41,522 nt of DNA, from NCBI GenBank assembly GCA_018882725.1, contig VERK01000003.1:1-41522 (forward strand), written 5' to 3'. Both the position numbers and the translations under genes were made by a program. The first letter of the stretch is position 1. Every line of letters begins with the position of its first letter. Of this stretch, positions 33,591 through 38,944 are shown piece by piece. The notes beneath the pieces are model-generated. The model was not told the DNA's origin. It was given only the letters and a program-made list of their open reading frames with translations, and ran no database searches. Source of the DNA: Actinomycetota bacterium (GTDB lineage: Bacteria > Actinomycetota > Acidimicrobiia > Acidimicrobiales > Ilumatobacteraceae).

Positions 33591-34472
33591 TCAGCGCGAA
33601 ACGCCCGATCCGGTGGCGACGATTCGGCCGAGTCGGCCGGCTTCGTAATCGTCGAACGCCTGGACGATCTCCTCACGGGTGTTCATGACGAACGGGCCGT
33701 ACCGCGCGATCGGTTCGAGCAGCGGCTCCCCCGACAACAAGAGAACGTCACATCCGTTCGGGCCGGCGACAATCGACATCGCTCCCGAGGATCGATCACC
33801 GACGACCATCACGCCCTCGTCACCTTCGACGTCGTTCACGGCGGCCGAGCCGATGAACACGTGGACGAGTGCGGTGTGTCCGTCGGGCACGTCGAACACG
33901 ATGGACTCGTCCGGCTTCAAGGTTGCATGGGCGTAGGCCATCGGACTGGTGGTGTCGACGATTCCGCGCACACCTTCCACTTCACCCGCGATCACTCGGA
34001 TGAGGCCACCGCCGGGTAGGACTCGTGAAGGAATTTCGTGCGCTTCGTAACCCTGGTAGCGCGGAGGAATCATCTTCTTGGCGGCCGGCAGGTTGACCCA
34101 CAACTGGAAGCCGTGCATGCGTCCACCTTCGCGCATGAGTCGGTCGCTAGGCATCTCGCTGTGCACGATGCCGGCTCCAGCCGTCATCCATTGCACGGCC
34201 CCAGGTGTGATGACACCGTGCCCACCGTTGGAGTCTCGGTGTTCCATCTCGCCGTGCATCATGTACGTGACCGTTTCGAAACCACGGTGGGGGTGATCGG
34301 GAGCCCCGATGGCGCGACCCGGTGCGTAATCGACCGGGCCCATCTCGTCGAGCAACAAGAACGGGTCGAGATTGTCGACCCGGGCGGTGGGGAACGGACG
34401 TCGCACCACGAATCCGCCACCCTCGGTCTGACGGACGGCCTGAATGGTGCCGGCGATCGGACGGTTCGACAT
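33591..34472 (-). CDS. Pirin family protein, coupled to lipB/lipA
   Basis: 293 residues from ATG 34472, which overlaps the LipB-LipA stop as TGATG; the track start TTG 34475 is less likely. Pirin features: FLLLDEMGPVDYAPG, the metal-binding HPHRGFETVTYMMHGEMEHR and the second-site GAGIVHSEMP, covering the three His and one Glu ligands. Pirins bind Fe in a bicupin fold; some have quercetinase activity. In Serratia marcescens pirin was reported to bind the pyruvate dehydrogenase E1 subunit and lower its activity. Position in a lipoyl/E2/E3 operon makes a similar role attractive here, but that is inference. Confidence 0.92.
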   Translation of the reverse strand: MSNRPIAGTIQAVRQTEGGGFVVRRPFPTARVDNLDPFLLLDEMGPVDYAPGRAIGAPDHPHRGFETVTYMMHGEMEHRDSNGGHGVITPGAVQWMTAGAGIVHSEMPSDRLMREGGRMHGFQLWVNLPAAKKMIPPRYQGYEAHEIPSRVLPGGGLIRVIAGEVEGVRGIVDTTSPMAYAHATLKPDESIVFDVPDGHTALVHVFIGSAAVNDVEGDEGVMVVGDRSSGAMSIVAGPNGCDVLLLSGEPLLEPIARYGPFVMNTREEIVQAFDDYEAGRLGRIVATGSGVSR

Positions 34473-36127
34473 CAACGCCCCTTCGCGGTGAGAGCCACCG
34501 GAACCTCAGCGGCGTCGGCCGATTGACGTGCGTGATAACTCGAACGGGTGAGTGGGCTGGCCTCCACGTGGGCGATTCCGAACCCTTCACCGATCTGCTT
34601 CCACCGGGCGAACTCGTCGGGGTGGATCCAACGCGCGACCGGCAGGTGATGCGAAGTCGGTCGCAGGTACTGACCCATCGTCACGATGCTCACCCCGACC
34701 GAAGCCAGATCGGCGAGGCAACCGTCGACTTCGTCGACCGATTCGCCCATTCCGAGCACCAGACCCGACTTGGTGGTGAGACCGGCCGCGCGCGCGGCCG
34801 ACAGGACGCCCAGACTGCGTGCGTAACCGGCCGAGGGTCGCACTGCGCGCTGCAGGCGAGCCACCGTTTCGATGTTGTGATTGAACACGTCGGGGCGCGC
34901 GCGATACAGCGGAGCGAACGAGGCCACGTCGCCTTTGGCGTCGGACACCAGCGTCTCGACACGCGTGTGCGGGCTGCGTTCGCGAATGGCCTCGATGCAA
35001 GCCGCCACGTGTGACATGCCGCCGTCATCGAGGTCGTCACGCGCGACCATGGTGAGCACGGCGTGCGACAGGTTCATGCGCACGACCGCTTCGGCCACCC
35101 GCTGGGGTTCGTCGGCATCGGGAGCCTCGGGCTTTCGCGTGTCGACCAAGCAGAATCCACACGCACGGGTGCACCGCTCGCCGAGCACCATGAACGTGGC
35201 GGTGCCGTCGCGCCAGCATTCGGACAGGTTCGGACAACCAGCTTCTTCACACACGGTCACGAGGCCGAGGTCGCGCAGAGTCGACTTCACCGCGAGTACT
35301 TCGGGGCCGATCGAGACCTTGGGTCGCAGCCATTCAGGTTTGCGATCGGATACCTCGAGGCCACCCGAGACGCCGGCATCGTGCAAACGAGCGTTCGACC
35401 GCGAGCCGACGCGAACCGGCTCGCCTGGACCCTCGCCGCGCGAGAACCGCGACAAGTCGTCGGGGCGGTGAACCCAGGCGACGTCCTGTCGTTCGACCAT
35501 GCCATTGGCCCAGCGTTCGGCGGCCAGACGCACGACGATGTCGACCACGGCCCGCATCTCGACGTCGACACCTTCTTCGCGCAGAGAGGTGACCGGGCGA
35601 TCACCGATTCCGCACGGAACGATGTGTTCGCGCATGTAGGTGAGATCGGTGGACACGTTCAGTGCGAACCCGTGCATGGTGCGACCGTTGGCGAGTCGAA
35701 CGCCGATCGCGCAGATCTTGCGCGGATTGGGACCGTGCACATCGACCCACACGCCAGGAAAGTCGGGAAGGCGTCCGGCATCGGACACTCCGAGTTCGGT
35801 GAGCGTGTCGATCACGATCTGTTCGACGGCGCACACGTGTTGGGACGCACCGATGCGGTTGTCGAGCGAGATGATGGGGTAACCGACCAACTGGCCGGGC
35901 CCGTGATAGGTGATGTCGCCACCCCGCTTGACCGACACGAATTCGGCGCCCACTGCGGCCGGATCACACTTCAGGTTCTTGTCGAGCTCGGCTCGTGGGC
36001 CGTACGTGAACACGTGCGGGTGCTCGAGCAGGAGCAGATGGTCGTCGTGTCCGTGCTCGAACAACGCGGTCTGGAGCGCGAGAGCCTCCGAGTACGGGAC
36101 TCGGCCCAGCCAGCGCGCTCGGAGCAT
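34472..36127 (-). CDS. lipB/lipA: Octanoyltransferase-lipoyl synthase fusion (LipB-LipA)
   Basis: 551 residues in one uninterrupted frame. Residues 1-205 are LipB: VKRGGDITYHGPGQL (67-80), the catalytic Lys137 in RKICAIGV and the catalytic Cys172 in VPCGIGDRP. Residues 206-262 are a polar linker. Residues 263-551 are LipA: the auxiliary-cluster CX4CX5C at Cys293, 298 and 304, the radical-SAM CX3CX2C at Cys319, 323 and 326, and the C-terminal RSSYHA with Ser530. LipB moves octanoate from acyl carrier protein to lipoyl domains; LipA inserts the two sulfurs. Both halves look active. ATG 36127 lies 3 bp after the E2 stop, and the 3' end overlaps the pirin gene. LipB and LipA are normally separate proteins. 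Confidence 0.95.
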   Translation of the reverse strand: MLRARWLGRVPYSEALALQTALFEHGHDDHLLLLEHPHVFTYGPRAELDKNLKCDPAAVGAEFVSVKRGGDITYHGPGQLVGYPIISLDNRIGASQHVCAVEQIVIDTLTELGVSDAGRLPDFPGVWVDVHGPNPRKICAIGVRLANGRTMHGFALNVSTDLTYMREHIVPCGIGDRPVTSLREEGVDVEMRAVVDIVVRLAAERWANGMVERQDVAWVHRPDDLSRFSRGEGPGEPVRVGSRSNARLHDAGVSGGLEVSDRKPEWLRPKVSIGPEVLAVKSTLRDLGLVTVCEEAGCPNLSECWRDGTATFMVLGERCTRACGFCLVDTRKPEAPDADEPQRVAEAVVRMNLSHAVLTMVARDDLDDGGMSHVAACIEAIRERSPHTRVETLVSDAKGDVASFAPLYRARPDVFNHNIETVARLQRAVRPSAGYARSLGVLSAARAAGLTTKSGLVLGMGESVDEVDGCLADLASVGVSIVTMGQYLRPTSHHLPVARWIHPDEFARWKQIGEGFGIAHVEASPLTRSSYHARQSADAAEVPVALTAKGR

Positions 36128-36130
36128 CGA

Positions 36131-37516
36131 TCAGATCTCGGGTAGCCAGTCGCGGGACTCGAGGATGTCCTTCACGCGCACGAGGAAGCCGGCGGCGTAG
36201 GCACCATCGAACGCACGATGATCCCAACTCATGGCCAAGTTGCCGGTGGGATGAATGGCGATGCTCTCGCCCCCCGACGGCAACGTGACGACGACCGGTC
36301 GACGCACGATCGCATCGGTGGAGAGGATCGCCACTTGCGGCTGGTTGATGATCGGCATGGTGAGCACCGATCCGGCCGAGCCGTTGTTGGAGATGGTGAA
36401 GGTTCCACCCGAAATCTCGTCGGGCGACAACTTTCGACTGCGCGCGCGGCTCGCCAGATCGTTGATTTCGCGCGCGATCGCTCGCAGTCGCTTGCCCTCG
36501 GCGCTGCGCACGACCGGAACCAGCAGACCCTGGTAATCGAGGTCGACCGCGATGCCGAGATCGACGTAACGATGCACTACGAGATCGTCGCCGTTGATGC
36601 TCGCGTTCATGTGCGGGAAGTCGGCCAACGCATCGATGACTGCGCGAGCGATGAACGGCAAGTAGGTGAGGCTGTAACCCTCTTGCGCCTTGAACTCGGC
36701 CTTCACGCGATTGCGCGTGGAGTCGACGTTGGCGAAGTCGACCTCGACCACGCTGAACGCGTGCGGACTGACGTTCTTCGACATGACCATGTGCGAGCCC
36801 GTGGCCTTGCGAATCTTCGACAGCGACACGACCTCGTCGCGATCGCCCACACGCACAGTGGGCGCCGGCGCAGCGGGAGACGTTGTCGCAGCGGGGGCCG
36901 GCGTTGCCACCGGAGCTGGAACAGCCGCGGGAGCCGGAGTCGGCGCGGCGGCGGGTGCGGTCGCGGGGGCCGAGCCGTGCTTGTCGATGTGATCGAGCAC
37001 GTCTTCACGCGTGATTCGGCCACCAGGGCCAGACCCGGCGATGCGATCGACGTCGAGGCCGTGTTCGGCCACGAGACGACGCACGACCGGCGACAACAGA
37101 CGATTGTCGCCCGAGACGGCGGCCGCAGGTGCGGCTACCGGAGCAGGAGCCGGAGCAGGAGCCGGAGCAGGAGCCGGAGCCGGAGCAGGTGCCGGAGCCG
37201 GAGCAGGTGCCGGAGCAGGTGCCGGTGCCGGAGCAGGTGCCGGTGCCGGAGCAGGTGCCGGCGCAGGAGCCGGAGCCGAACCAGCGGCACCCACGACGGC
37301 GATGACCGCACCAACGGGAACCGTTTCGCCCTCGGGCACACGAATCTCGACGAGCACCCCCGCGACGGGTGACGGAACCTCAGTGTCGACCTTGTCGGTC
37401 GACACTTCGAACAACGGCTCGTCGGCCGCCACGGTGTCGCCCACCTTCTTGAACCAACGCGTGATGGTTCCTTCGGTGACCGTCTCACCCAACTGCGGGA
37501 GCGTGACCTCTGCCAT
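36131..37516 (-). CDS. sucB: 2-oxoacid dehydrogenase E2, dihydrolipoamide acyltransferase
   Basis: 461 residues. Residues 1-78 are a single lipoyl domain with Lys42 in VSTDKVDTE as lipoylation site. Residues 80-137 are a striking Ala-Pro linker. Residues 138-180 are the E1/E3-binding domain (RLLSPVVRRLVAEHGLDVDR). After a second Pro/Ala linker comes the catalytic core, ending in SWDHRAFDG with His433 and Asp437. It carries acyl groups between E1 and E3. The acyl specificity (succinyl, acetyl or branched) is not certain; in actinobacteria one E2 can serve more than one complex. E1 is not in the window. lpd lies 18 bp upstream, and LipB-LipA, which would lipoylate it, lies 3 bp downstream. Confidence 0.92.
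   Translation of the reverse strand: MAEVTLPQLGETVTEGTITRWFKKVGDTVAADEPLFEVSTDKVDTEVPSPVAGVLVEIRVPEGETVPVGAVIAVVGAAGSAPAPAPAPAPAPAPAPAPAPAPAPAPAPAPAPAPAPAPAPAPAPAPVAAPAAAVSGDNRLLSPVVRRLVAEHGLDVDRIAGSGPGGRITREDVLDHIDKHGSAPATAPAAAPTPAPAAVPAPVATPAPAATTSPAAPAPTVRVGDRDEVVSLSKIRKATGSHMVMSKNVSPHAFSVVEVDFANVDSTRNRVKAEFKAQEGYSLTYLPFIARAVIDALADFPHMNASINGDDLVVHRYVDLGIAVDLDYQGLLVPVVRSAEGKRLRAIAREINDLASRARSRKLSPDEISGGTFTISNNGSAGSVLTMPIINQPQVAILSTDAIVRRPVVVTLPSGGESIAIHPTGNLAMSWDHRAFDGAYAAGFLVRVKDILESRDWLPEI
37137..37278 (-). repeat. GC-rich 6/12-bp tandem repeat encoding the E2 Ala-Pro linker
   Basis: The plus strand shows about 140 bp of GGAGCC, GGAGCA and GGTGCC hexamers, often as the 12-mer GGAGCAGGAGCC. 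They encode alternating Ala and Pro. The near-identical codons suggest expansion by slippage while the frame is kept. Confidence 0.85.
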
Positions 37517-37534: not shown

Positions 37535-38944
37535 TCAGGCGTTCAGGCTTCGTCCGGTGAGCGACAACACCGTCTCGCCGAACAACTCGGACAGACTCGG
37601 GTGCGGTTGCACGAACTCGGCGATTTCGTCGACGGTGGCTTCCCAGTTGACGGCGAGATAGCCACCCGACAACTGCTCGGTGACCCACGGGCCGACCATG
37701 TGCACACCCAACACCTGTCCGGCCGAGCCATCGGCGTTGCGCTTGGCAACGATCTTCACGAGACCGTCGATCTCACCCAGGATCTGGGCCCGACTGTTGC
37801 CGCGGAACTGGTGCTTGGCCACGACGACGTCGAGGCCCTGTTCCTTGGCGGCGTCTTCGCCCGGTCCGGCCCAGGCAACTTCCGGATGGCAGTAGATGGC
37901 CCACGGCACGCGGTCGTACGCGATGGGTGCCGGGCCTTCGCCCAACAGGTGCTTCACGGCGAGGATCGCTTCGGCGTAGCCGACGTGTGCGAGTTGCGGC
38001 GTGTTGACGAGATCGCCGATGGCATACACGCCGGGCTCGCCGGTGCGACACCACGCATCGACTTCCACGAAGCCGCGTTCGGTGACCTTGACCGCTGTGC
38101 CCTGCAATCCGAGGAGATCGGCAAAGGGACGGCGGCCGACCGACACCACCACGGCATCGACTTCGAGTTGCTCTCCCTCGCCGAACGACACCACGGTTCC
38201 ACCTGACGCATTGGGTGTGTGGCCGTTCACCATCACACCGGTGCGGATGTCGATGTTCTTCTTCTTGAACGACTTCACGACAACGTTGGCGACGTCGGTG
38301 TCGAGGCCGGGAAGGATCTTGGGCAGACCTTCGAGAATCGTGACCTTCGAGCCGAGATCGGCGAAGGTGGACGCGAACTCACAACCGATCGCACCGCCGC
38401 CGATCACGGCGACGCGGGCCGGTACGTAATCGAGGTCGAGGACTTCGTCGCTCGTCATGATGGGTCCGCCGCGATCGAAACCGGGAATGGTGCGGGGCAC
38501 CGAACCGGCGGCGAGGATGACATTCGCCCCCTGAATGACAGTCGACGATCCATCGTTCATCGAAACGTTCACGGTGCGGTTGACGCCGAGCGATCCGGTG
38601 CCGTTGAACACGGTGACCTTGCGCGACTTGCAGAGACCGCCGATTCCCTTCACCAGACCATCGACGATCTTGCGCTTGCGCGCCTGGGTCACGGCGAAGT
38701 CGACCGACGGGGCCGAGGCGTTGATGCCGAAGTCGGCGGCGTGAGCCACGTGCCGGTACACCGACGCGGTCTCGAGAAACGCCTTGGCCGGAATGCACCC
38801 ACGGTTGAGACAGGTACCACCCAGAGCATCACGTTCGACCAGAGCCACGTTGACACCAGCCGATGCCGCGTACAGCGCAGCGCCGTAGCCTCCGGGACCT
38901 CCACCGATCACGACGAGATCAAATTGCTCGGCCGTACAGACCAC
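37535..38944 (-). CDS. lpdA: Dihydrolipoyl dehydrogenase (E3)
   Basis: 469 residues from GTG 38944 as given in the track. FAD-binding GGGPGGYGAA is at 14-23, and the redox disulfide GGTCLNRGCIPAK has Cys45 and Cys50. A second Rossmann motif VIGGGAIGCEFAS binds NAD, and the active-site dyad HPSLSE (His448, Glu453) is intact. It reoxidises lipoyl groups of E2 with NAD+. The start is doubtful: GTG 38944 overlaps the strong ribosome site GGAGG. The ACG at 38935 lies 8 nt after GGAGG and would give an N-terminus of the usual family form (xAEQFDLVVIGGG). It is the first gene of the lpd-E2-lipB/lipA-pirin operon. Confidence 0.93.
   Translation of the reverse strand: MVCTAEQFDLVVIGGGPGGYGAALYAASAGVNVALVERDALGGTCLNRGCIPAKAFLETASVYRHVAHAADFGINASAPSVDFAVTQARKRKIVDGLVKGIGGLCKSRKVTVFNGTGSLGVNRTVNVSMNDGSSTVIQGANVILAAGSVPRTIPGFDRGGPIMTSDEVLDLDYVPARVAVIGGGAIGCEFASTFADLGSKVTILEGLPKILPGLDTDVANVVVKSFKKKNIDIRTGVMVNGHTPNASGGTVVSFGEGEQLEVDAVVVSVGRRPFADLLGLQGTAVKVTERGFVEVDAWCRTGEPGVYAIGDLVNTPQLAHVGYAEAILAVKHLLGEGPAPIAYDRVPWAIYCHPEVAWAGPGEDAAKEQGLDVVVAKHQFRGNSRAQILGEIDGLVKIVAKRNADGSAGQVLGVHMVGPWVTEQLSGGYLAVNWEATVDEIAEFVQPHPSLSELFGETVLSLTGRSLNA

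Follow-up and report, generated by a model that had tools for sequence, protein, structure and literature searches.

A LipB-LipA gene fusion kept across the class Acidimicrobiia and its proposed role in protein lipoylation

LipB and LipA are both textbook enzymes of protein lipoylation, and the succession of octanoyl transfer and sulfur insertion has been established for the separate enzymes. To our knowledge, little is understood of how the octanoylated domain moves from LipB to LipA, as these are mostly two separate enzymes. In the genome of an Ilumatobacteraceae bacterium (class Acidimicrobiia; assembly GCA_018882725.1), a 41,522-nucleotide stretch of contig VERK01000003.1, hereafter the window, carries a single frame that reads as both enzymes in a row. 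This locus raises the question of whether the two are truly joined, how far the joined form extends beyond this genome and what the two halves may gain from it. We are fairly confident that the frame encodes a bifunctional protein-lipoylation enzyme that arose by one joining at the base of the class, and in which the tether would favor capture of the octanoylated domain by the adjacent LipA half, with both activities and the benefit of proximity deduced from the features described below.

The fused gene and its two halves

The lipB-lipA fusion gene (34472..36127, minus strand), as delimited by its frame and profile matches, starts with an ATG at 36127 and ends with a stop codon at 34474-34472, comprising 551 codons with no internal stop; a sequence-only reading of the window had described this uninterrupted frame correctly, leaving its strand unnamed. 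The LipB (octanoyltransferase) half, covering residues 1-205 (35513..36127, minus strand), matches the LplA/B catalytic family over residues 12-199 (PF21948, E 5.9e-38) and passes two NCBIfam equivalog cut-offs, scoring 145 bits with TIGR00214 (cut-off 83.55) and 172.4 bits with NF010925 (cut-off 155). Both members of its Cys/Lys dyad, the catalytic residues Lys137 (codon at 35717..35719, minus strand) and Cys172 (35612..35614, minus strand), show no variation across the 40 fused homologues that we aligned. The LipA (lipoyl synthase) half, residues 262-541 (34505..35344, minus strand), matches TIGR00510 over residues 259-535 with 342.2 bits, above the curated equivalog cut-off of 310.25. It harbors the auxiliary-cluster motif C293-x4-C298-x5-C304 (CX4CX5C; 35216..35251, minus strand), the radical-SAM motif C319-x3-C323-x2-C326 (CX3CX2C; 35150..35173, minus strand) and, close to its end, the RSSY motif (34535..34546, minus strand) with R528, S529 and the cluster ligand Ser530, all of which are invariant in the same 40 fusions. 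The roles of these LipA motifs, including that of Ser530 as a cluster ligand, have been described (PMC12246082). The earlier claims of a complete octanoyltransferase with Lys137 and Cys172, and of a complete radical-SAM lipoyl synthase with six cysteines and Ser530, were thus confirmed, and there is strong support for the 551-residue protein being a genuine fusion of LipB and LipA. Judging from the conserved residues, the LipB half probably transfers octanoyl groups from ACP and the LipA half probably inserts sulfur.

Separately from these features, ARAGORN called a tRNA-Trp inside the LipB frame (35681-35764, minus strand); with no Rfam tRNA match in the window, this call is almost certainly a false positive.

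Between the two halves lies a linker of residues 206-261 (35345..35512, minus strand), in agreement with the length of about 57 residues reported earlier. Its mean column conservation is 0.40 vs. 0.64 for LipB and 0.71 for LipA, and its length in Acidimicrobiia lies anywhere between 23 and 169 residues, with 12 residues in a myxococcal fusion (L097), as counted between boundaries 205 and 259. Two patches within the linker are nonetheless conserved in part. In the stretch FSRGEGPG (residues 228-235; 35423..35446, minus strand), which is disordered in the predicted structure, the F-x-R-G-x-G patch (228-233) shows F228, R230, G231 and G233 conserved in more than half of the weighted set; further on, R247, L248, A251, G252 and V253 are conserved in an R-L-x-x-A-G-V patch (247-253) that overlaps an ordered helix at residues 240-250 (35378..35410, minus strand; a DSSP helix with block-mean pLDDT of about 80-88).

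Distribution and origin of the fusion

A whole-protein search of the own genome, a draft assembly of about 89% completeness that may be missing another lipA or lipB, yielded the fusion itself only. Among 61 genomes, i.e. the own genome and 60 relatives, 55 gave a match, most of them in a single piece, stop-free and of whole-protein length, and a sample of the class returned a match in 285 of 296 Acidimicrobiia genomes. As the open-frame length given by the search seems to read through stops, we assigned fusion status by our own frame test on each fetched locus, which led to 121 distinct fused Acidimicrobiia proteins from many families, with the fusion present even in the genomes of about 1 Mb that make up family f46. 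Essentially the whole class Acidimicrobiia has kept the fusion. The count by lineage that the sequence-only reading had called for reveals the standard form of a class rather than a curiosity of one genome, and the idea that the fusion is unique to its own genome is ruled out by fused homologues throughout the class. That reading had also named two observations that would overturn it, a hidden stop between the halves and separate genes in close relatives; we looked for such a stop and found none, and the close relatives are fused.

Several Acidimicrobiia matches were flagged as having stops inside, but the stretch from LipB to LipA was stop-free in the loci that we checked, with the exception of one genome; in locus L127, for instance, the stop is situated solely at the C-terminal end. 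One genome, represented by loci L032, L113 and L179, has its LipB half interrupted by an in-frame TAG, and another full copy was not found there; the TAG reflects either a sequencing error or a decaying gene. A different genome (G107) contains the fused gene and, on a 5-kb contig, a further lipB-lipA pair in which the two genes are separate; this pair falls outside the class in the trees of both halves and is probably a contaminant.

Outside the class, the picture is the reverse. In other Actinomycetota, lipB and lipA are separate in all 29 loci having both genes (18 from named genomes and 11 from the phylum sample), mostly in close proximity; lipB comes first in the named loci, and those of the Mycobacterium and Nocardia type have an E2 gene and a DUF1731 gene upstream of lipB. 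We surmise that lipB and lipA were probably already neighbors near E2 in the actinobacterial ancestor. One candidate for a fusion in another actinobacterial class (G366) was rejected, since the frame check finds a stop between the genes despite a 604-residue frame reported for both matches. Frame-confirmed fusions do occur in a gammaproteobacterial set (G436, locus L088, and G472) and in a set around a locus labelled Deltaproteobacteria/Myxococcota (G437, locus L097, as well as G495, G487 and G490), where they are a minority among relatives that mostly have separate genes. Given that the two genes are separate but neighboring in other Actinomycetota, the fusion looks like the loss of a boundary between neighbors. 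This step is illustrated by the fused gammaproteobacterial G436 and its 77%-identical counterpart in G440, in which both genes share one frame with a single stop between them.

In maximum-likelihood trees, all Acidimicrobiia fusions form one group (support 92 for LipA; 93/82 for LipB), and the gammaproteobacterial (L088) and myxococcal (L097) fusions are placed apart from them in both; the deepest forks of both trees are weakly supported and do not fix the exact sister group. Because the Acidimicrobiia fusions form one group in both trees, a single fusion at the base of the class is the simplest history: most likely, an adjacent lipB-lipA pair was fused once in the acidimicrobial ancestor and the halves have been inherited together since.

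Lipoyl acceptors and the coupling of the two halves

Directly upstream of the fusion on the same strand is the gene of an E2 acyltransferase with one lipoyl domain (36131..37516, minus strand; TIGR02927, 442 bits; PF00364), followed further upstream by that of dihydrolipoyl dehydrogenase, E3 (37535..38944, minus strand; TIGR01350, 478 bits). The distance of 3 bp from E2 stop to fusion ATG is as had been stated. Of 48 fused named loci, 43 have E3 and 37 have E2 in the fetched flank, with E2 usually less than about 100 bases away. Five Acidimicrobiia loci (L046, L052, L056, L060 and L062) have E3, not E2, directly upstream, which shows that E2 does not adjoin the fusion everywhere. In the E2 of the window, both the lipoyl domain and the E3-binding domain are followed by long linkers rich in Ala and Pro. 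On the other side, the last 4 bases of the fusion gene are shared with a pirin gene (33591-34475, minus strand) that possibly starts at a TTG. Among the 48 named relatives, 7 have pirin after the fusion, so the two genes may be co-transcribed.

Referring to the neighboring E2 as the substrate of the fusion, as the sequence-only reading did, proved apt in that this E2 is a likely substrate, but too narrow, as the own genome encodes at least three lipoyl acceptors, comprising two E2s (the neighbor and C301) and GcvH (C148). Because of these further acceptors, the fusion is probably not dedicated to the neighboring E2; it must serve the second E2 and GcvH as well, unless a weak LplA-like protein (C265) does so. 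The latter (L214:1447-2124 in G000), a 226-residue member of the LplA/B family, falls far short of the curated cut-offs for lipoate ligases and is possibly a diverged ligase or transferase.

We propose that the LipB half would take octanoate from acyl-ACP onto Cys172 with the participation of Lys137 and then move it to the lipoyl-domain lysine of an E2 or GcvH, whereupon the C-terminal radical-SAM LipA half would draw on its auxiliary cluster to insert two sulfurs. The tether would hold the two active sites in a 1:1 ratio and at high local concentration, such that an octanoylated domain leaving LipB would likely be captured by the adjacent LipA.

A simpler reading, plausible though short of probable in our judgment, is that the halves are merely tethered and work as they do in species with separate genes, the fusion having become fixed in the ancestor as a neutral accident, with no gain in hand-over. 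It is in accord with a linker that is variable in length and disordered in its middle, with acceptors that include an unlinked GcvH and a second E2, and with the sporadic fusions elsewhere, which show how easily adjacent lipB and lipA are joined; however, almost no re-splitting has been seen in the class, and the second half of the linker is ordered and semi-conserved.

The structural prediction bears on whether the coupling goes beyond proximity. An AlphaFold2 model of the fusion, built from the alignment of 40 fused sequences, had a mean pLDDT of 90.8 and a pTM of 0.91, a value that is the model's own assessment of its confidence and no measurement. The second half of the linker was ordered, and disorder was confined to residues 222-235 and the C-terminal end. 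The modeled halves resemble the solved M. tuberculosis structures, LipA with 5exk (TMt 0.92) and LipB with 1w66 (TMt 0.86). A control fold of the gammaproteobacterial fusion L088 gave a pTM of 0.70 with a wholly disordered linker (214-250), from an alignment that is mostly acidimicrobial and hence less suitable for it. The difference between these two pTM values suggests that the Acidimicrobiia halves, as modeled, pack in a defined way, and the predicted ordered arrangement is compatible with the direct passing of the octanoylated domain that the sequence-only reading had envisaged; such a direct hand-over is possible. The stronger proposal, that the halves are docked in a defined arrangement and the lipoyl domain is passed from site to site with little solvent exchange, seems to us somewhat unlikely. 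The high pTM and the ordered linker helix in contrast to the independent sporadic fusion speak for it, but AlphaFold confidence does not amount to a measurement, and the wide range in linker length, together with partial variation in its sequence, argues against one fixed geometry class-wide. That the linker helix itself fixes LipB against LipA in Acidimicrobiia, enabling a lipoyl domain to be both octanoylated and sulfurated without leaving the enzyme, we regard as doubtful on the basis of this model.

It is also quite improbable that a separate LipA is made from the fused frame by an internal start or by cleavage of the linker. In favor of it, the middle of the linker is disordered, and 28 of the 121 linkers compared combine a start codon with a Shine-Dalgarno-like sequence, but such a site is missing in the remaining 93 and only 47 of the 121 contain an ATG at all, so an internal start is not conserved. 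Finally, an assembly or sequencing artefact joining two genes has virtually no chance of explaining the long frame, even with a fragmented draft as the source genome and an in-frame stop in the LipB half of one relative, as it is already refuted by the independent genomes that carry the 121 distinct fusions, some of which, like G035 and G063, are assembled as a single contig.

Comparison with known lipoylation systems

As a class-wide fusion, the Acidimicrobiia enzyme should allow both steps, and the way they are coupled, to be measured and structurally resolved on one protein, and if the halves are indeed docked, it would represent a naturally linked hand-over from LipB to LipA. In addition, an apparent clean gene fusion of single origin marks the Acidimicrobiia clade and is useful as a rare genomic change. 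Among the NCBIfam matches of the 551-residue protein there is no model of a LipB-LipA fusion, and we found no description of one in the open-licence literature, leaving prior notice elsewhere possible; the main text of a large survey of how prokaryotes assemble lipoate (PMC10332631) presents other fusions only.

The closest separate counterparts are LipB and LipA of Mycobacterium and other Actinomycetes (M. tuberculosis 1w66 and 5exi/5exk), which belong to the same families and share the order of lipB then lipA with E2 close upstream, but comprise two genes and two proteins where Acidimicrobiia have one. The DUF1731 gene, positioned between E2 and lipB in many of these actinomycete loci, is found in the window beyond E3 and on the other strand. 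The bifunctional lipoate-protein ligase/lipoyl synthase NF053790 (LplA_LipA_fuse) has the same order of attachment enzyme and LipA; however, its N-terminal half is an ATP-dependent ligase instead of the octanoyl-ACP transferase LipB, and our protein reaches 324.4 bits with this model, through the LipA part only, vs. a cut-off of 800. The sporadic gammaproteobacterial (L088/G436 and G472) and Myxococcota-like fusions (L097/G437, G495, G487 and G490) have the same architecture in a single open frame, but the trees separate L088 and L097 from the Acidimicrobiia, and several of the myxococcal ones are accompanied by an extra separate lipA. In G437, G495 and G487 (L198-L200), this second lipA lies elsewhere in the genome together with a lipB, giving apparently duplicate lipoylation systems. 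Set against these systems, the acidimicrobial fusion is a new architecture made of known parts.
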